This document shows positions 44,779 through 58,148 of a DNA stretch of 64,000 nucleotides, piece after piece. The notes under the pieces are model-generated. The model was not told where the DNA came from, made no database searches, and saw only the letters and a program-made list of their open reading frames with translations. Location of the stretch: NCBI GenBank assembly GCA_001898145.1, contig MKSR01000040.1, positions 974,680-1,038,679 on the forward strand, in the 5' to 3' direction. Both the position numbers and the translations under genes were made by a program. The stretch's first letter is position 1. Each line of letters opens with the position of its first letter. The stretch comes from Dyadobacter sp. 50-39. Its GTDB lineage: Bacteria; Bacteroidota; Bacteroidia; Cytophagales; Spirosomataceae.

Positions 44779-45399
44779 TTATTTTTTCAAAGAGAGCAGC
44801 ATTGCCGCTACAAGCAGCGAATCGGCGTGGCGGCGGAGCTGTGTCCGGATGGTCGCCATCGCCTGCACAATGTGGTTTTTGACCGTATTAGGGGATATTT
44901 TGAGAAGATCGGCGATTTCTTCATGGCTCTTTCCCTCCTCGCGGCTAAGGCGGTACACAGCCCGCTGCTGGGGCGGCAGCGTGTCCACTACCGACTGCAA
45001 AACCTCTTCCACTTCCCTGGCCGCCAGCAAATCCTGGGCGTTGTTATTGCCCTGGTCGCCGTCCCGGAACATCTCCGACACGATGGCCGTCTCGTGCGCC
45101 ATGCGTTTGAAATGGTTGAGTACGTGGTTGCGGGACATCCGGAAAAGGTAACCGCCGAAATTATCGATCGAAGACAGCGATTCGTGATCCGCCCAGAGCT
45201 TCATGAAAACATCCTGCACGATATCCTCGGCCAGCATTTCGGAGCCGGTGAGGCGGAGGGTGTAGCCGTAAAGTTTGCTTTTGTATCGATGAAAGAGCGC
45301 AACAAAAGCGGCCTGACTACCCTGCGCGGCAGAGAGTACCAGGTATTTGTCGCTATCCGAATAAGCCTCCTTCAAACCTTTAACAGAACTAATAATCAA
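44779..45399 (-). CDS. ECF RNA polymerase sigma factor, start codon uncertain
   Basis: Family homology starts at SDSDKYLVLSAAQGSQAAFVALFHRY and runs through region 2 (GYTLRLTGSEMLAEDIVQDVFMKLW) and region 4 (LPPQQRAVYRLSREEGKSHEEIADLLKISPNTVKNHI). There is no ATG in frame near this start. The only upstream ATG is at 45570, and the intervening 55 residues look non-coding for this family. I used TTG at 45399 (206 aa, normal ECF length); TTG at 45373-45375 is another option. The C-terminus carries a short hydrophobic tail (LLVAAMLLSLKK). It should drive the FecR/SusC/SusD/GH89 genes downstream. Confidence 0.88.
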   Translation of the reverse strand: MIISSVKGLKEAYSDSDKYLVLSAAQGSQAAFVALFHRYKSKLYGYTLRLTGSEMLAEDIVQDVFMKLWADHESLSSIDNFGGYLFRMSRNHVLNHFKRMAHETAIVSEMFRDGDQGNNNAQDLLAAREVEEVLQSVVDTLPPQQRAVYRLSREEGKSHEEIADLLKISPNTVKNHIVQAMATIRTQLRRHADSLLVAAMLLSLKK

Positions 45400-45553
45400 T
45401 AAGTAACCAGCCGGCAATATATTGTTTGGAAAATTACAGAAAATTAAGTAAAAATTTGTTTGGTATACTAGGTTTCCGAAGAAAAAGAGGGAATGGCAGG
45501 TGATGGGTAACTTTTGTTCGTTGACATATACAGTTTGAAAAATACTTCTATCC

Positions 45554-45847
45554 ATTGATACGTACGGCATTCAAATCATGCTGCTGTTCTCCATTTGAAG
45601 CACTAACTTAGAAGCAGCTTAAAACAGGAAGCTTTTCAAAAAACTTAACGACTTCATTTGGGAATTCAGGACGCTATACAATAGCAAGTCGTATCGACTT
45701 TTTTGTTTTTGGGACAAAGTTGATGGTAAGGAAACCTTGGTTGGGGCGACACATGGTATCCTAAAAAAGACATAAAAAACGCCGCCAAAGGAGATTAAGA
45801 AAGCTGAGGAAATCAGGAGACAGTATTTGGACTACAAAGCAAAATGA
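45554..45847 (+). pseudogene. Decayed HigB/RelE-type (Gp49-like) toxin gene
   Basis: Reading the frame that ends at TGA 45845-45847 gives NRKLFKKLNDFIWEFRTLY, then YRLFCFWDKVDG, LVGATHGILKKT, a stop, and KTPPKEIKKAEEIRRQYLDY. This is the recognisable C-terminal two-thirds of a HigB/Gp49-like mRNA interferase. TAA at 45773-45775 interrupts the conserved KKTQKTP block exactly where Gln is expected (CAA to TAA). Further in-frame stops lie at 45620-45622 and 45596-45598, and no start is visible. The intact XRE gene starting eight bases after the frame is the expected antitoxin. The toxin is therefore inactive unless the stops are suppressed. The 5' boundary is approximate. Confidence 0.75.
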
Positions 45848-50047: not shown

Positions 50048-51187
50048 CTACTTCCAAATGAAGCCATCTTTCCACTTCCTGGCGATGGATACAGCAGTTT
50101 CGAGCATGTAAGGAGCCCAGTTCTCGACCTGCCAGGCGGTATTGCGCAAATCGGAGGCGAGCAGCAAGGCCCTGGCTTCGTACGCATCTGAGGCCGTTTC
50201 CAGAATGCGGGAGAGCTGGACCTGCTGGTTATATAAATCGGGATCTTCCAATGGCATGTCGTTTGGAAGTGTCCCTGCCGGCGCGAATGCATAGGCGGGC
50301 GCATGGGCAGAGCGGGATGCCGACGCCCGGACGATACCGTCCATGCGGAGGAAATCCGACTGGAAAGCGGCCTGTCTTTCCGGCGTTTCAAGGGCAGTAC
50401 CCATTTGTTCCAGCACCACAAACCGGATGTTTGGACATTTTGGAATGGCTTTACTCAAAAAGTCAAACACCGCTTCCGGAACCCTTTCATCGTGTGTATC
50501 GCGCCTCACGGGCCTGCCGGGCGCGGCCAGGATGTCGTCCCAGCTCCCGCCGGAAATATGGATTTCCCGCACCCTGTCCAGCGGATAGAGGCGCATGATA
50601 TCGTCGAAATCGATATTGAAATTGTGCGTCTGGCAGTAAACATTGTGCAGGTCGAGAATGATGAAGCCGTTGACGCTCCCGACCAGCTGACCAAGGAAGT
50701 CGCCGTGTTTCTTCACCTCGTCGATCGAATAGGAAAAAGCCAGGTTCTCCAACCCGACCGGACATTGGCAAGCATCCTGAATGCGTTCCAGACGATCTTT
50801 CCCCAGGGCCAGCGTCCGGGAGGTGAAGGGAATGCTGATCGGCGCGCCTTTATGAAAATCCTCGCCGGTCATGAACCCGAAATGCTCCGTAATATGCGCA
50901 AAGCGAAATTCGCCGGACAACTTACGGAGCTTGTCGAGCCATTCCTGCTGTTCGCGGGACCATTTCCCCGAAAATAGCGAAAAATACACGCCGTGACCGA
51001 TCAGCCGGTCGTGGTTACTGAACTCGCCCACAAGGTCTGTAAACCAGGCCGGGATTTCATCGAATTTGAAAAGGGTATCAAAAGACCATTCGATGGCCTC
51101 CACTTTTTCCTGTTCAAACAGTGGCAAAGCCGCTTGCAGAATGTGGGCATCCAGATTACAGGCAATGGAAGAGTAGATTTCAGACAT
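50048..51187 (-). CDS. MNIO family multinuclear iron oxygenase (DUF692) with a C-terminal extension
   Basis: The protein is 379 aa. Residues 1-285 are a DUF692/MNIO TIM barrel of the MbnB-TglH-ChrH group. Predicted iron ligands are in place: H65 in IGHGVYF, E101-H102 in ITEHFGF, E147 in GLENLA, D179/H181 in LDLHNVYC, E209-H210 in EIHISGG, D230/H232 in RDTHDE and E260 in VLEQ. MNIO enzymes oxidise Cys or Asp residues in short precursor peptides. A 51-aa Cys-containing exported peptide is encoded 12 bases upstream, which I take to be the substrate. The last ~95 residues (about 50048-50332) have no family I know and could replace the separate partner protein often needed for substrate binding. 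Confidence 0.92.
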   Translation of the reverse strand: MSEIYSSIACNLDAHILQAALPLFEQEKVEAIEWSFDTLFKFDEIPAWFTDLVGEFSNHDRLIGHGVYFSLFSGKWSREQQEWLDKLRKLSGEFRFAHITEHFGFMTGEDFHKGAPISIPFTSRTLALGKDRLERIQDACQCPVGLENLAFSYSIDEVKKHGDFLGQLVGSVNGFIILDLHNVYCQTHNFNIDFDDIMRLYPLDRVREIHISGGSWDDILAAPGRPVRRDTHDERVPEAVFDFLSKAIPKCPNIRFVVLEQMGTALETPERQAAFQSDFLRMDGIVRASASRSAHAPAYAFAPAGTLPNDMPLEDPDLYNQQVQLSRILETASDAYEARALLLASDLRNTAWQVENWAPYMLETAVSIARKWKDGFIWK

Positions 51188-51199
51188 GCATATCCGCGA

Positions 51200-51355
51200 T
51201 CAACCCATTCCGCAACCCGGGCAATAATCGTAAGGCTTGTTCTTAGTTATCTTCTCGCCGTTGGGGCCAATCGCATTGTCTGTGCAAGCCGTCGTGAGCG
51301 CAGCAACCGTAACCGCAACAGCCACAGCCTGCAATACTGATTTTGAGATTTTCAT
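51200..51355 (-). CDS. Exported 51-aa peptide with C-terminal CPGC motif; candidate MNIO-modified precursor
   Basis: The peptide reads MKISKSVLQAVAVAVTVAAL then TTACTDNAIGPNGEKITKNK and PYDYCPGCGMG. It has a positively charged N-terminus, an Ala/Val-rich hydrophobic core and a TTAC cleavage region (a weak lipobox or signal peptidase site). The short Lys-rich linker leads to a C-terminal core with two Cys residues spaced as CPGC. Only 12 bases separate its stop from the MNIO start. Signal-peptide-bearing MNIO substrates (the bufferin type) are known to bind copper after Cys oxidation; this sequence differs from them. The precursor role is inferred from motif and linkage. Confidence 0.75.
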   Translation of the reverse strand: MKISKSVLQAVAVAVTVAALTTACTDNAIGPNGEKITKNKPYDYCPGCGMG

Positions 51356-51451
51356 AGTGGAATCCGTTAAGGTGAATTAGAATACAGCAGAGACAGGGTT
51401 TGCGCGTATTTGGTTGTAACCGGTTATGACTAAATTGTTCTTTCTTTCAAC

Positions 51452-51507: not shown

Positions 51508-52761
51508 TTATTTTCCCTCGCTGAAATAATTATAGAATACCTCTCCCAGGTTTGAACCCAAAGAAATCCAGTCTTCGGCCAACGGTGCTTTGCTGAGCCC
51601 GGCAATCCATTCGTAATTCAGCTCATACACGGCCGCGTGGATACCGAAGCGCTCCATGAACCCCTCCCCGAGCGTGCCCGGGTTGCGGAAGCTGGGTTTG
51701 GTGGAGCCGGCGGTGAACCAGGTGTGCTTCCGCAGCAGCATTTCCAGCTTTTCCATGCTCGACAAGTAGGCGCTGATGTCGCCGTCCGGGCGGCTGATGT
51801 GCAGGTACCCGCCGGCGTCGTTGTGGATGTCGAGCGCCAGGTCGGGCTTCTTCCTGGCTTTGATCATCCGGTGGAGCCATTGTTCGAGGTAATAGTTCTC
51901 GGGTGCGATGAGCGAATCGGCGGGCTTGTCCCATTTGCGGTTCAGGTCATAGCCGTTCGCATTGAATCGCGTTTTGCCGCGGGCTACGCCATCCTTATTG
52001 GCCATCGGCAGGATGTACACGCAGTAGCTTTTGAGGTAACGTTTGGCGTCGACGTCGTTGCTGAGCAGCTTTTGCACCAGGCCCTCAACCGTCCAGTTCC
52101 CCCCTGCCTCGAATGCATGGGCGCGGGCACGCAGGAAAAGCCGTTTCGGGGCATTCTCATTGCCGATCCGGACGATTTCCAGCGAGCGGCCCTCGGACGT
52201 CTTGCCGATGGTTGTTACACTGGCGTTCTTGCTCTGCCTGATTTTCGCCAGCATTTTGTCCAGGTCGCTGATCCGGTAGGGCTCTACGCTGGCAATGTAG
52301 GCAAACGGCCCCTCCATTTTGAGTTTGATCAACACGCGACGGCCGGGTAGCGGGACGACGGAGCGGCTCTCCCACTTCTTGTTGTCAAACGAAACCAAAT
52401 ACCGCGACTTCTCCGACAAGTCGCTGGCGAGCCTTCCATTCCACACGTTATCAAAGTTTTCGAGGATCAGCGTCACCTCGGTACCCATGGCCGCTTCCAC
52501 TTTGAAATGATAGTGGTTCAATGCCCGGTTGGGTGAAAATCGTTCGTAGTCGTACACCATGGAGCCGATCACCCGGCCGGCCGAATCAATCCGCCAATTC
52601 ATGGGCGACGCATTTTCAAAGCCGGTATTGATAAAAATTTTGGGGGTGACGATGCTGTCAGGCACAGCCTTGGTTTTGGCACCGGCGACTCCCGCCGCAA
52701 AGGTCGCCGGGACGGCCATGAACCCGGCAAATATCGCCGTCAATAATGTTATCAGTTTCAT
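51508..52761 (-). CDS. M14 family zinc carboxypeptidase, secreted
   Basis: This 417-aa protein has a signal peptide (LITLLTAIFAGFMAVPATFAA). A beta-sandwich N-terminal domain of the cytosolic-carboxypeptidase-like type (residues 40-165, with RFSPNRALNHYHFKVEA) precedes the catalytic domain. Zinc ligands are H215 and E218 in RAHAFEAGGNW and H313 in LDIHNDAGGYLH; the substrate-binding Arg is in YDLNRKW (R275) and the catalytic Glu is E380 in VYELNYEW. Such enzymes trim C-terminal residues of peptides or peptidoglycan-derived peptides outside the cytoplasm. It follows the SusCD genes on the same strand after a tandem-repeat spacer and may be part of that operon. Confidence 0.9.
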   Translation of the reverse strand: MKLITLLTAIFAGFMAVPATFAAGVAGAKTKAVPDSIVTPKIFINTGFENASPMNWRIDSAGRVIGSMVYDYERFSPNRALNHYHFKVEAAMGTEVTLILENFDNVWNGRLASDLSEKSRYLVSFDNKKWESRSVVPLPGRRVLIKLKMEGPFAYIASVEPYRISDLDKMLAKIRQSKNASVTTIGKTSEGRSLEIVRIGNENAPKRLFLRARAHAFEAGGNWTVEGLVQKLLSNDVDAKRYLKSYCVYILPMANKDGVARGKTRFNANGYDLNRKWDKPADSLIAPENYYLEQWLHRMIKARKKPDLALDIHNDAGGYLHISRPDGDISAYLSSMEKLEMLLRKHTWFTAGSTKPSFRNPGTLGEGFMERFGIHAAVYELNYEWIAGLSKAPLAEDWISLGSNLGEVFYNYFSEGK

Positions 52762-52972: not shown

Positions 52973-52974
<2 letters not shown>

Positions 52975-54412
52975 AAAAGTTGTACCCCGGATTTTGTTTG
53001 ATCCCGCTGGGGTTAATGTCGATCTGCGTCTGCGGGATCGGGAACACCGCGTTGAAATCCTGCACAACGGTCGCTTTGAAATGCTGGTTCATTACAGCCA
53101 CCTCGCGGCCCGTGCGCACGAGGTCAAACCAGCGGTGCCCTTCGAAGGCCAGCTCCACCTGCCGCTCGTGTTCGACGGCCAATGCGAATGCCTCCTTGGA
53201 CAAACCCGCCGGTAATGCCGCCAGTTTTGCACGCTTCCGCACGGTATTGATCGCGTCATAGGCCGCAGCGGCAGGGCCGTCGGCGGCGTTCACGGCTTCG
53301 GCGTACATCAGCAGCACGTCCGCGTAGCGCAATACGGGCCAGTTGTTGTCGGCGTCGCCGTCCGTGAAAGGCGTATCCTGGAATTTGAGGGTGTAGGGAT
53401 CAGCCACGTATTTCCCGGTAACGTTGTCGGTATATCCCAATGCGAGCGACACGTTTTTGCGGTAGTCGCCCGGTTCATAGGCCGTGATGAGATCCGTGGT
53501 AGGCAAATGCCGCCCGCCGGCAAATCCGACTTTGATCACCGAACTCCCCGAGTTGCGCGGCGCGAAATTGTTGTAAAAGCTGCTTCCGGTACCTGTGCCT
53601 CCCTTTTTAAATTGTACTTCAAAAAGCGATTCCTGGTTGTTCGCATTGGCTACCGGCCACAGGGCGGCATAGTCGTCGAGCAGCTTGTATGTGCCCGCGT
53701 CCATCACTTCTTTCAGTTTGTCTTTGGCCTTCGCAAAATCGCCCATTGTCAGGTACACCTTGCCCAGCAATGCCCTGGCGGCACCGCGTGTGGCCCGGCC
53801 CATGTCATTGCCGGCGTAGGAAACCGGCAGCTTCTGTTCGGCGTCCGTCAGGTCGGCGATGATCTGGCTGTAAACTTCCGCTTTCGGCATGCGGGGCTGG
53901 CTGTAACCTTCGTCCACGGATTTGGTTTCCGACAGTACCAGCGGCACATCCCCGAATGTCCGCACGAGGTTGAAATACTGCAATGCGCGCAGGAAACGCG
54001 CCTCACCGATAAACCGCTGCCGGAGCGCATCGTCCATTTGCGCACCACCGATATGGTCGAGCACGGTGTTGGCAGCGAGGATGCCGCGGTAAGTATCCAC
54101 CCACATCACGCGGATGATTTCGTTCGTGGAAGCCATTTTGAACTGGTCCAGCTCGGCGTCGGGCAGGTTACCGCCGCCTTCCCAGTTCATGGTGTTGTCC
54201 GAGCGCACTTCGGCCACATTATAATAGGCATAACCGTATTCGCCCGCATTGGCCAGCATGCCGTAAGCCGCGGTAACTGCGGCCTGCATGTCGGAGGCGT
54301 TTTTGTAAAAGTTACTCACGTTGGTGGCGTCGATAGGCGCCAGTTCCAGGAAGTCCGAGCAGCCCGAAGCGAGCACGCACAGGGAGCCGAAAATGATGGT
54401 ATGTAGTTTCAT
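52973..54412 (-). CDS. SusD/RagB family nutrient-binding outer membrane lipoprotein
   Basis: The protein is 479 aa with a lipoprotein signal ending at Cys18 (VLASGC), then SDFLELAPIDATNVSNFY. The SusD core shows YADVLLMYAEAVNAADG, HERQVELAFEGHRWFDLVRTG and a terminal QNPGYNF. It is a surface glycan-binding partner of the SusC encoded 15 bases upstream. Its layout is closely similar to the SusD at 420-1940, including EVRSDNT near the start and FEVQFKKGG in the middle, which suggests the two systems handle related ligands. The stop codon lies at the edge of a tandem repeat. Confidence 0.95.
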
Positions 54413-54427: not shown

Positions 54428-57400
54428 TTAGAATGTCAGGTTCAATGCCAGGGTAAATGTGCGGGCCAGCGGGTAGCCGTTGAAATCGACGCCCGGTGTA
54501 AGCGAACTGCTGCCGTTGAGGCTCTGCTCGGGATTATAGCCGCGGTAGGGCGTGAAGGTGAGCGCATTCTGTACCGAGAGCGTCACGGCCGCATTTTGCA
54601 GATACACCGATTTTGAAACGCTCTCAGGCAGGTTATATCTCAAATTAATATTCCTGATCCTGAAAAACGACGCATTCTCGACGAGCAAGCTCGATACATA
54701 GCTCACATTGCCGCCCATGGGTGCCACATTCGCACGCGGTGTGCGGCCGTCGCCCGGCTGCGAGGGCGATTGCCAGCGGCCGAGCACGTCCTTCCGGCTG
54801 TAACTGCCATTCACGAGCCCGATGTTGCGGCGGGAGCCATTCAAAAGCTGGATTCCCTGCACGCCGTCGCCCAGTATACTGAGGCTGAACCGGCCATAGG
54901 AGAAATTGTTGGTAATACCATAAAAGAAATCGGGGCTGTTGTTGCCGATGATGGTGACGTCGCTCGGGGTGATGGCGCCATCACCGTCGATGTCCCGGAA
55001 TTTCAGGTCGCCCGGGCGTGACCCGGATGCCCCTCCTACCCGGGGGCTGTTGTCGACATCTTCCTGCGACTGGTACACGCCGATCGCGTCATATCCCCAA
55101 AAGCTGCCGATCGGCGCGCCGATTTTGGTAATGTGCGTATTCGGGCTGAATGAGGGGCTTTTCGAGATGATCGGGTTACCGGAAGGACCGAGTTTCACTA
55201 CCTTGTTTTGATTGAAAGAGATATTGAACGCCGTCGACCATTTGAATGCACCCGTCAGGTTTTTGGAATTAATACTAAACTCCCAGCCGCGGTTGTTGAG
55301 CTTGCCGATGTTTTGGAGGGCCGTTTCATAGCCCGTAGAAGCGGGAACCGGCACATTGAGCAGCAGGTCGGTGGTGTTTTTATTATAATAGTCAATAGTA
55401 AGACTGACACGGTTACGCAGCAATGCGAAATCCGCGCCTATATCAAACTGATGCATCATTTCCCAGCCCAGCTGCTCATTGCTGATGGAGCTCGGGTAAA
55501 GCCCGTATGCCAGCGAGCCCGTACCTGCGCCGAAACTGTAACGGCGGTTGGAAAGCAAGCCAATGTGGTTGTAGTTGCCAATGGTGTTGTTCCCGGCCAA
55601 CCCGTAGCTCGCCCGCAGTTTCAGGTCGGTTACCACATGCTGCGATTTCATAAAATTCTCCTCCGACAGGTACCAGCCCACCGACGCCGACGGGAACGTG
55701 CCCCATTTGTTGCGTGCCCCGAAACGCGACGATCCATCCCGTCGCATGGTGGCCGAAAACAGGTATTTGCCTGAATAAGTGTAGTTTACCCGTGCCAGCA
55801 GCGACAGCAGCGACCATTCCGACGCGTAGGTACCGCCGCCAGTAACCTGCCCTGCGTTCAGGGTCGGTACAAGGTCCGTCGGGAAGTTGGTCGCATTGAT
55901 TGCTGCCGATTCGCCATGTGCTTTCTGAGCCGTGAAACCGGCAAGCAGGTCCAGTTCATGCTTGGTATTGAATGTCTTTTTGTAGCTCAAAATATTCTCG
56001 TTCAGCCAGTTGAGCTCGCGTCCGGTAGATGCGATGGCGCGCGCCTGTACTGGAGCCGGAACGCCGTTCCAGCCTAAATCGGAGGGATAGTAGGCATTTT
56101 CGCGGGCATCGGAATAGTCGAGGCCGAACGAGGTGCGGAATTTAAGGCCGTCGATGAGCTTTAACTCGGCATATACATTACCCAATGTCCTGAAAACAGT
56201 GCGCTTGTCCTTGATTTTATTCGCAATCGCCACCGGATTGTCGATCACGCCGATGTTGTACGGCGACGGCCCGAGCAATGTCGTGTATGAGCCGTCGGCA
56301 TTGTAAACCGGCACGGTCGGCGGCAGCGACAATGCCGAACCGAGGATACCACCGGTAAATACCTGGTCTTCCACCGGCAGAATGCGGCTTGTGGCGTAGG
56401 AAGGCGACAAGTTCATACCCACACTCACATGCCGGGAAATATGGTGATCAAGATTGACGCGTGCCGAGTAGCGGTCGAAACCGGTTTTCATCACAATACC
56501 GTCCTGCTTGAAATAAGCGCCAGACATAAAAAAGGTCGTTTTGTCATTCCCGCCCGAAACCGACAACTGGTGATTCTGAATGGCGGCCGTCCGGAAAACC
56601 TCGTCCTGCCAGTCGGTACCCCGGCCGAGCGACTGCGGGTTCATAAACATTTCGGGGATTTGCAATGCGGAGGGCCGTGCGCTGTTGGGGTCGCTTGCGT
56701 TACCGCCCTTATCCACCCATGCATTGTTGCGGGCCTCAGTATTGTATTCGGCGTACTCCCGGGCATCGAGCATGTCGATCTTGTTTGCCACCTGCTGAAA
56801 ACCATAGTAGGTATCCAGCTGCACCACCGATTTCCCGGACTTGCCATGCTTTGTCGTCACCAGCACGACGCCATTGCTCCCGCGTGACCCGTAAATGGCT
56901 GCGGCCGAGGCGTCTTTGAGTATTTCAATGGATTCGATGTCGTTGGGATTAATGGACGAAAGCGGGTTGAAATTGCTGTTGAAATCGCTGGAAACAGGAA
57001 AGCCGTCGATCACGTACAAAGGCTCGTTACCCGCGCCTATCGAGCCGGTGCCCCGTACGCGTACGGATACGCCCCCGCCCGGCGCCCCTTTCGTCTGTGC
57101 CACGTTCACGCCCGCGATCTGTCCGCCCATGGCCTGGTCGAGGCTGGTCAGCGGCTGGCTCGCCACGTTTTTCATGGGTAGCGAGGCTACCGATCCGGTG
57201 ATGCTGCTTTGCTTCTGGGTGCCGTAGCCTACTACCACCACGTCGTTCAAAGCTTTGGTATCGACAGCCATCGAAAAGTTCAGTTCCGCATTGTTGCCTG
57301 CCGCGATTTCCTGGTTTTTATACCCTACAAAACTGGCGACGAGCACCAGTTCTCCGGCCATCGATTCGGGAACGCTCAGGCGGAATTCGCCATTCGCATC

Positions 57401-57964
57401 GGTGGCCGTGCCTGTCTGCGAATTTTTGACGATAATGCTCACGCCCGGAAACGGACTGCCGTTTTCATCGGTAACACGTCCCCGCACTATACGGTCTGTG
57501 CTCACGGGTAGTGGATCGATGCTGCGCCGGTTGAGCTCGATCACCGGCTGTGTTTCGGGCATGCGGCTCGGGATCGCAGTTTCCGGCACCGGCATTTTCA
57601 CGATCTTTTTCAGGACGATGTTCCGCTGAAAGATTTTGTAGGAGAGCGGCAGGTCCCTGAAAACTGCCTGTAAAAGCTCGTCGATCGATCCGTTTTTCAA
57701 CTTGACCGACACTTTTTTTGACGACGGCAAATCGAGCTCATCGTATAAAAACAGGTAGCCTGTGTGCTGCTCGATATTTCGCAGGGCAGTCTGTAGCGGG
57801 ACGTTTTTGGCTTGAAAGGAAATCTTTTGACTAAACCCGTCCGCGGTCACGTGGGAGAGGGTTACGATGAGCAAAAGCATGATCCTGGTCATAATCATCA
57901 GAGTTTGGGCAACAATATGCGCCCTGTCGCCCGCCGGAAAGCGGGGCAAAAGGTTAATTTTCAT
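54428..57964 (-). CDS. SusC/RagA TonB-linked receptor with STN signalling domain
   Basis: The start is placed at 57964 (MKINLLPRFP, 1178 aa), ahead of the membrane segment (IMTRIMLLLIVTLSHVTADGFSQ); the frame is open to 58072 but the extra residues are polar and unlike a leader. The STN domain (LQTALRNIEQHTGYLFLYDEL) is followed by a carboxypeptidase-like domain (VRGRVTDENGSPFPGVSIIV), the plug (LYVIDGFPVSS, YGSRGSNGVVLVTTKHG) and a barrel ending FTLALNLTF. It pairs with the SusD downstream. The FecR and ECF genes upstream complete a trans-envelope signalling loop. No glycosidase lies in this operon, so the nutrient is unknown. Confidence 0.94.
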   Translation of the reverse strand: MKINLLPRFPAGDRAHIVAQTLMIMTRIMLLLIVTLSHVTADGFSQKISFQAKNVPLQTALRNIEQHTGYLFLYDELDLPSSKKVSVKLKNGSIDELLQAVFRDLPLSYKIFQRNIVLKKIVKMPVPETAIPSRMPETQPVIELNRRSIDPLPVSTDRIVRGRVTDENGSPFPGVSIIVKNSQTGTATDANGEFRLSVPESMAGELVLVASFVGYKNQEIAAGNNAELNFSMAVDTKALNDVVVVGYGTQKQSSITGSVASLPMKNVASQPLTSLDQAMGGQIAGVNVAQTKGAPGGGVSVRVRGTGSIGAGNEPLYVIDGFPVSSDFNSNFNPLSSINPNDIESIEILKDASAAAIYGSRGSNGVVLVTTKHGKSGKSVVQLDTYYGFQQVANKIDMLDAREYAEYNTEARNNAWVDKGGNASDPNSARPSALQIPEMFMNPQSLGRGTDWQDEVFRTAAIQNHQLSVSGGNDKTTFFMSGAYFKQDGIVMKTGFDRYSARVNLDHHISRHVSVGMNLSPSYATSRILPVEDQVFTGGILGSALSLPPTVPVYNADGSYTTLLGPSPYNIGVIDNPVAIANKIKDKRTVFRTLGNVYAELKLIDGLKFRTSFGLDYSDARENAYYPSDLGWNGVPAPVQARAIASTGRELNWLNENILSYKKTFNTKHELDLLAGFTAQKAHGESAAINATNFPTDLVPTLNAGQVTGGGTYASEWSLLSLLARVNYTYSGKYLFSATMRRDGSSRFGARNKWGTFPSASVGWYLSEENFMKSQHVVTDLKLRASYGLAGNNTIGNYNHIGLLSNRRYSFGAGTGSLAYGLYPSSISNEQLGWEMMHQFDIGADFALLRNRVSLTIDYYNKNTTDLLLNVPVPASTGYETALQNIGKLNNRGWEFSINSKNLTGAFKWSTAFNISFNQNKVVKLGPSGNPIISKSPSFSPNTHITKIGAPIGSFWGYDAIGVYQSQEDVDNSPRVGGASGSRPGDLKFRDIDGDGAITPSDVTIIGNNSPDFFYGITNNFSYGRFSLSILGDGVQGIQLLNGSRRNIGLVNGSYSRKDVLGRWQSPSQPGDGRTPRANVAPMGGNVSYVSSLLVENASFFRIRNINLRYNLPESVSKSVYLQNAAVTLSVQNALTFTPYRGYNPEQSLNGSSSLTPGVDFNGYPLARTFTLALNLTF

Positions 57965-58148
57965 AACTTTGTTAAAGTTTAGGATGGCAAAATGACTTTT
58001 CAGAGAAGCTCGGTTGCGCCTGGACTGCGGGGAAAATGTTAGCGCATTTTCCCTTTTGTTTGTAGGCACCACGGTTTCAGGGCGGAATGTGCAGCGCAGT
58101 TTTCATCGGAAGAAGGTTTAAAATTGAACGCAAATAACTATACGCAAA

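Follow-up and report, generated by a model that had tools for sequence, protein, structure and literature searches.

The window analysed here, a 64,000-nt stretch of the genome of Dyadobacter sp. 50-39, carries on its reverse strand a short gene of the dybA type, followed by a dybH-type gene encoding an MNIO enzyme (Table 1). All positions are those of the window, and "own genome" refers to that organism's genome. Translation of the short frame (51200-51355, reverse strand) gives MKISKSVLQAVAVAVTVAALTTACTDNAIGPNGEKITKNKPYDYCPGCGMG, and 12 nt separate its stop codon (51200-51202) from the ATG of the MNIO gene, which begins at 51187. Coordinates and translation confirmed the preliminary description of this DNA, which reported a short frame with its stop 12 bases before a DUF692/MNIO gene.

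Table 1. Features of the dyb cassette and of the genes upstream of it, with positions in the window.
Feature	Position	Strand	Basis or remark
dybH-type MNIO (ChrH subfamily), 379 aa	50048-51187	-	PF05114, NF050165 MNIO_ChrH, AlphaFold2 model
C-terminal helical domain of the MNIO, residues 316-374	50066-50242	-	AlphaFold2 model
dybA-type RiPP-lipoprotein precursor, 51 aa	51200-51355	-	NF050125 ChrA_rel_RiPP; upstream of MNIO in 27/27 loci
C-terminal core CPGCGMG, predicted MNIO target	51203-51223	-	pN/pS 0.04, core conservation
Invariant lipobox Cys24, predicted diacylglycerol attachment site	51284-51286	-	27/27; equivalent DybA Cys lipidated (PMC12636315, available part)
Lipoprotein signal peptide, residues 1-23	51287-51355	-	Lipobox by eye; residues 2-15 pN/pS 0.16
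ECF-sigma-type promoter element GTTACAACCAAATACGCGCAAACCCTGTC (-35-like TTACAACC, -10-like GTC)	51392-51420	-	Ends 36 nt before dybA start codon
Exported M14 carboxypeptidase-like protein	51508-52761	-	Directly upstream of dybA
SusD-like frame	52973-54412	-	By eye; upstream of cassette
SusC	54428-58072	-	Upstream of cassette

The peptide matched NCBIfam NF050125, the chryseobasin-related MNIO class RiPP peptide family, with 62.9 bits (cut-off 40). Its N-terminus is a signal peptidase II (lipoprotein) signal with the lipobox L-T-T-A-C, as judged by eye. The signal sequence seen in the preliminary description is therefore present, but it is of the lipoprotein type, with LTTAC and an invariant Cys24 that had been missed. 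The same applies to the periplasmic location proposed there: the product carries an export signal, but the lipobox predicts lipid anchoring at the membrane instead of a free periplasmic peptide, and a membrane-anchored product is expected from the sequence. The core had been regarded as distinct from the known chryseobasin motif; it belongs to the chryseobasin type, CPxCGxG, as indicated by the NF050125 match and by a 2025 preprint (PMC12636315; this source, PMC10214503, PMC12452194 and PMC4800418 are cited from their available parts). Among 27 Dyadobacter precursors, the core reads CPACGMG in 20, CPGCGMG in six and CPACGLG in one; judging by these sequences, CPGC occurs naturally as a variant of CPAC. 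All 27 precursors keep the lipobox Cys, the two Cys and the Pro of the core, and two Gly of the core.

The 379-aa product of the second gene matched Pfam PF05114 with 103.6 bits (cut-off 25). Its best NCBIfam model was NF050165 (MNIO_ChrH) with 393.2 bits, under the equivalog cut-off of 600, and for this reason an S-methylated product like that of ChrH is not implied. Membership of the bufferin/oxazolin group was not found, since the enzyme scored under the cut-offs of the BufB (86.3 bits, cut-off 310) and HvfB (73.1 bits, cut-off 360) models and the peptide matched no BufA- or EGKCG-type model. Profile alignment to TglH (8hci) showed that the polar positions E147/N148, D179/H181, H210, D230/H232 and E260 are kept, as are H65 and H102 in the alignment to the DUF692 structure 3bww, and all of these positions are invariant in 27 relatives. 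We take these residues to be the iron ligands of the MNIO, in line with the metal ligands noted in the preliminary description. An AlphaFold2 model built with 27 sequences had a mean pLDDT of 84.6, and the best solved matches of its N-terminal part were TglH (8hci/8hi7) and MbnB (7tcr/7tcw/7dz9). After a low-confidence stretch, the model contains helices at residues 316-331, 335-343 and 359-374. By their position, residues 316-374 putatively correspond to the C-terminal bundle of helices reported for ChrH (PMC12636315) and to the separate MelHc.

Matches to the MNIO were obtained in 28 of 48 Dyadobacter genomes, with a full-length close relative in 27 of them and a distant paralogue alone in G008. 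The other 26 Dyadobacter MNIOs are 62-78% identical to that of the window, and a peptide of 50-52 aa is encoded immediately upstream of the full-length MNIO at all 27 Dyadobacter loci, one locus per genome. Across these loci, pN/pS was lowest in the core (0.04), followed by residues 2-15 (0.16), the MNIO (0.28) and the linker (0.49). Because of its conservation upstream of the MNIO at 27/27 loci and of this purifying selection, the short frame is judged to be a translated and selected gene, not a chance ORF. One genome, G036, holds a second MNIO copy (C62, L185) that was matched in two frames and whose precursor frame lacks the usual start; this copy is apparently decaying.

A scan of named genomes gave 26 loci, 11 of them in Dyadobacter and 15 in other Bacteroidota (Fluviicola, Chitinophagales, Saprospiraceae and others). 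At 14 of these 15 loci, the peptide encoded upstream has a lipobox (by eye) and ends in CxxCG(M/L/R)G. The preliminary description had proposed conservation of the short frame beside orthologous MNIO genes as a check, and this conservation was found, both at the 27 Dyadobacter loci and at these 14. Its reading of the pair as a RiPP precursor with its MNIO is likewise supported by the family matches and the conserved pairing. Seven of the 15 loci encode two precursors in tandem (L170-L172, L178, L180, L182 and L188), and some cores lack the Pro of CPxCGxG, namely CIACGRG (L170), CAACGMG (L178) and CLDCGRG (L188). Among 395 genomes sampled evenly across the phylum, the precursor family exceeded the cut-off in three, including that of the window, and in a fourth (G312) a CPACGMG peptide is encoded beside an MNIO, with a score under the cut-off.

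The DybA/DybH pair of Dyadobacter crusticola has been characterised as a DAG-RiPP (PMC12636315). DybA has an internal lipobox Cys and a C-terminal CPACGMG; DybH is active without a partner protein and converts the CPxCGxG tail into a macrocycle plus a hydantoin, with a change of -4 Da, and the lipobox Cys was tri-acylated in E. coli. The locus in the window resembles this pair in genus, in its layout of two genes, in a lipobox precursor of ~50 aa with a C-terminal CPxCGMG and in the helical domain of the MNIO, and it equally lacks a partner gene. It differs in its core, CPGCGMG preceded by DY compared to the CPACGMG of DybA, and in its neighbours, the two systems being compared here by description. 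HymA of the HymA/HymH pair of Hymenobacter gelipurpurascens shares the CPGC core and was also shown to be modified (-4 Da), although it ends in CPGCGLG and belongs to another genus (PMC12636315). Chryseobasin, the ChrA/ChrH product of Chryseobacterium, has in common with the window a CPxCGMG core and a ChrH-subfamily MNIO, but the longer ChrA has a signal for signal peptidase I and lacks a lipobox Cys, the chryseobasin product carries an S-methyl group (+10 Da) and the cluster contains more genes (PMC10214503, PMC12636315). The locus therefore falls outside chryseobasin in the strict sense, with 393.2 bits against a cut-off of 600 for the MNIO and a lipobox Cys24 in the precursor. Some bufferins and oxazolins with lipoprotein signals are also predicted or shown to be MNIO-modified lipoproteins, but these have different core motifs and partner proteins, and their thiooxazole or oxazolone groups are tied to copper (PMC12636315, PMC12452194).

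The cassette in the window is thus a further DybA/DybH-type DAG-RiPP, as seen in the C-terminal CPxCGxG, the lipobox Cys (by eye), and a ChrH-subfamily MNIO with a helical domain and no partner gene. The candidate new modified-peptide system of the preliminary description is not new, given the NCBIfam family match and the published DybA/DybH of Dyadobacter (PMC12636315); the system itself had already been described. The identity and chemistry of the cassette as DybA/DybH type can be assigned with high confidence. What the present analysis adds to the published work is a link to an ECF-type promoter and a constrained dybA signal peptide.

The genomic neighbourhood was compared in 31 regions of ~17 kb, comprising the window, 27 others with the dyb MNIO, one of them the additional G036 copy, and three where the MNIO is a different one. 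With neighbour families clustered at 35% identity over 60% of length, mechanical ORF calls and most neighbours unannotated, no gene family besides the MNIO was found in more than 13 of the 31 regions, and no conserved biosynthetic neighbours were detected. The families common to 10-13 regions reflect one common chromosomal site. This gene content suggests that the cassette is a two-gene unit that relocates. An inverted repeat, AACTCCTC...GAGGAGTT, was seen by eye between the M14 gene and dybA; a terminator at this position was considered and discarded, as a terminator scan found none. At 44779-45570, the window encodes a further ECF sigma factor, which is of the Bacteroidota TIGR02985 type (153.7 bits, cut-off 126.4); linking it to the SusC/SusD locus would be a guess.

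ECF-sigma promoters have a -35 region with AAC and a -10 region with GTC. In the window, the only match to the pattern GTTACAACC-N15-18-RTC lies at 51392-51420, upstream of dybA, with 0.01 matches expected from shuffles. Aligned upstream regions contain TT(A/C)CAAC-N19-TC ahead of dybA at all 27 Dyadobacter loci, as TTACAAC in 26 and TTCCAAC in one. Across the 48 genomes, GTTACAACCA-N17-TC gave 164 matches, compared to 65 for the reversed pattern. When the 30 loci listed for each pattern were inspected on mechanical ORF calls, 19 motif loci and four control loci were intergenic; a frame started within 300 nt downstream in 16 and three of these, respectively, and the lipobox regular expression was passed in eight and none, bearing in mind that this expression missed the lipoprotein-looking L107 and that at L098 the MNIO frame was taken instead of dybA.

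In the own genome, looser patterns were weakly enriched relative to the reversed control (7 vs 6 and 14 vs 8), and fixed spacing and many genomes were needed for the enrichment to show. The pattern TTMCAACC-N17-GTC had 13 matches there, compared to five for the reversed control. Twelve of the 13 sites were judged, again on mechanical ORF calls (L231, lying off-centre, was left out): three lie inside long frames and nine are intergenic with a frame downstream. The genes following these nine sites are dybA, an ECF sigma gene, LVIVD and FKBP lipoprotein genes (by Pfam) and five assigned by eye, for two further lipoproteins, two glycosyltransferase-like proteins and one 155-aa protein. Outside Dyadobacter, the strict element was absent within 250 nt of all 16 dybA genes; a looser form, CAAC(C/G)-N17-19-GTC, written after viewing the sequences, was present within 150 nt in seven of the 16 loci, with 0.06 expected from dinucleotide shuffles.

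Of the genes at the 12 judged sites, the ECF sigma gene (motif locus L131; own-genome copy G000:C19:388630-389190) alone encodes a sigma factor. Relatives with E values of 1e-60 or better were found in all 48 genomes, 27 of which contain the dyb cassette. TT(A/C)CAAC-N19-TC precedes the ECF gene in all 34 readable genomes (L206 excluded), as TTACAAC in five and TTCCAAC in 29; in a first look, the strict TTACAAC form had been seen in four of 29 regions. Compared to GTTACAACC...TC, these 34 regions have zero, one, two or three mismatches in 5, 10, 17 and 2 cases, respectively, so that 32 of 34 have at most two, while 0.9 would be expected from mononucleotide shuffles. The same element was found before the neighbouring serpin-like lipoprotein gene in five of five genomes (Pfam Serpin with 340.5 bits in the own genome, the other four assigned by resemblance), and before the LVIVD lipoprotein gene in four of five, with no such gene seen in the fifth stretch. 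The stretch L226:1296-7339 contains three copies of this promoter element, and its gene order is ECF sigma, a 494-aa outer-membrane barrel-domain protein in the anti-sigma position, the serpin lipoprotein, the LVIVD lipoprotein and two more, encoding a 192-aa exported protein that matched no Pfam family and a lipoprotein-like protein whose META match stayed below the threshold.

The element is therefore common to dybA and to the upstream region of the sigma gene itself, as would be the case for an ECF-controlled operon. These data suggest that an autoregulated ECF sigma probably drives dybAH. On the other side, the ECF gene copies are mostly TTCCAAC (29/34) and the dybA copies mostly TTACAAC (26/27), other ECF factors may read similar elements, and the sigma gene is present in all 48 genomes but the cassette in 27. 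SigP of P. gingivalis was rejected as the cognate sigma, since its published motif differs (PMC4800418). The available part of PMC12636315 does not mention a promoter or regulon of the dyb genes, and among the papers listed on Bacteroidetes ECF regulons, serpin lipoproteins and Dyadobacter sigma factors, no link between dyb and an ECF factor was seen. The shared promoter element suggests an envelope-response role for the dyb product.

Recognition of the precursor through its C-terminus has been argued to relax selection on the N-terminus (PMC12636315). Residues 2-15 of dybA had a pN/pS of 0.19 in 12 species, while the same residues of five further families of exported proteins, encoded at mostly the same loci, had values of 0.26-0.71, and their mature parts 0.07-0.20; a sixth family (fam 5) was excluded from the comparison, as its starts were wrongly placed. 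By this measure, the dybA signal peptide appears unusually constrained within Dyadobacter, and its N-terminus does not look relaxed. Starts resembling MK(I/L)SxxLLxA recur in dybA-type precursors of other orders, and similar signals were also found on some unrelated lipoproteins (L192, L194). The signal peptide could be recognised by the enzyme or by the export machinery; alternatively, the constraint could simply reflect a strong export signal. The constrained signal peptide is, besides the promoter, a second testable point on the dyb cassette.

Taken as a whole, a DybA/DybH-type DAG-RiPP cassette under an ECF-type promoter is by a wide measure the best explanation of the locus. According to the promoter data, an envelope signal would release the ECF factor and lead to the transcription of dybAH. 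By analogy to the published relatives, the MNIO alone would then carry out a four-electron oxidation of CPGCGMG in the cytoplasm, generating a hydantoin and a macrocycle that joins the two Cys (-4 Da); after this modification, the peptide would be exported, Cys24 lipidated and the signal peptide removed by signal peptidase II. The resulting 28-residue lipopeptide would remain membrane-bound, with the outer membrane or vesicles as possible destinations. The other likely targets of the same ECF include a serpin, an LVIVD and an FKBP lipoprotein, and because the promoter is common to them, the lipopeptide most likely has a cell-surface function that is called for by an envelope signal. It might act beside these lipoproteins at the surface, helping to maintain or protect the envelope.

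The purpose of lipidated macrocyclic peptides is stated outright as unsolved in PMC12636315, and different roles can be weighed on the present data. The metal-binding role put forward in the preliminary description, a new periplasmic RiPP working like bufferins or methanobactin, would agree with the copper-binding peptides made by MNIO relatives and with the free thiol reported in the DybA product, but it is very improbable here: the family match is to chryseobasin-related and not to bufferin peptides, the DybA product was reported without a methanobactin- or bufferin-like absorbance feature in the available part of PMC12636315, the lipobox predicts membrane anchoring, and no neighbour gene of any kind is kept across loci, most neighbours being unannotated. 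The SusC, SusD-like and M14 genes directly upstream on the same strand raise a different idea, that the adjoining SusC/SusD and carbohydrate locus uses the lipopeptide as a ligand for nutrient uptake or signalling, possibly after trimming by the M14 carboxypeptidase. Frequent SusCD co-occurrence was remarked on in PMC12636315, and SusC-type proteins were found in six of the 27 other dyb regions (L032, L051 and L058 by scan; L036, L037 and L053 by gene family). However, the SusC, SusD, M14 and AraC families of the window recur in none of the 30 other regions, no SusC was seen among frames of at least 1000 aa in the other 21 dyb regions, and a conserved promoter element belongs to the cassette itself, making such a partnership distinctly unlikely.

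Somewhat less unlikely, though still doubtful, is the speculation in PMC12636315 that the macrocycle serves as a warhead against other bacteria, either on display or released in vesicles, which draws on its structural resemblance to the lantibiotic B ring and would fit the patchy distribution of the cassette (27/48 genomes). Since no third gene is conserved with the cassette, no immunity or export gene is conserved either, and sharing a promoter with the serpin, LVIVD and FKBP lipoproteins speaks for a part in maintaining the envelope. We tentatively propose that a core ECF envelope response of Dyadobacter has the dyb lipopeptide as an effector. Produced alongside a serpin, an FKBP isomerase and further lipoproteins of the surface, this rearranged thiohemiaminal macrocycle on a lipid anchor might shield proteins of the envelope or inhibit proteases of hostile origin. 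Its signal peptide would be under leader-like selection and maybe recognised by the enzyme or export machinery in the native host, contrary to the published view of relaxed selection on the N-terminus. This full version is plausible, with the odds somewhat against it. A promoter tie to a defined ECF sigma and to a few co-regulated envelope proteins would turn the question of purpose into ordinary genetics.

A different MNIO of 287 aa was observed in L031:1064-2199 (G018), L029 (G008) and L060 (G040), with BufB as its best NCBIfam model (145.8 bits, cut-off 310). In L060, the peptide was not called by the mechanical ORF picker. In L031 and L029, this MNIO is preceded by a 92-aa-type protein without a signal peptide, containing GC(T/L)(G/A)CGLGGRDL; the L031 peptide had no Pfam or NCBIfam match, and this protein is possibly an uncharacterised precursor.
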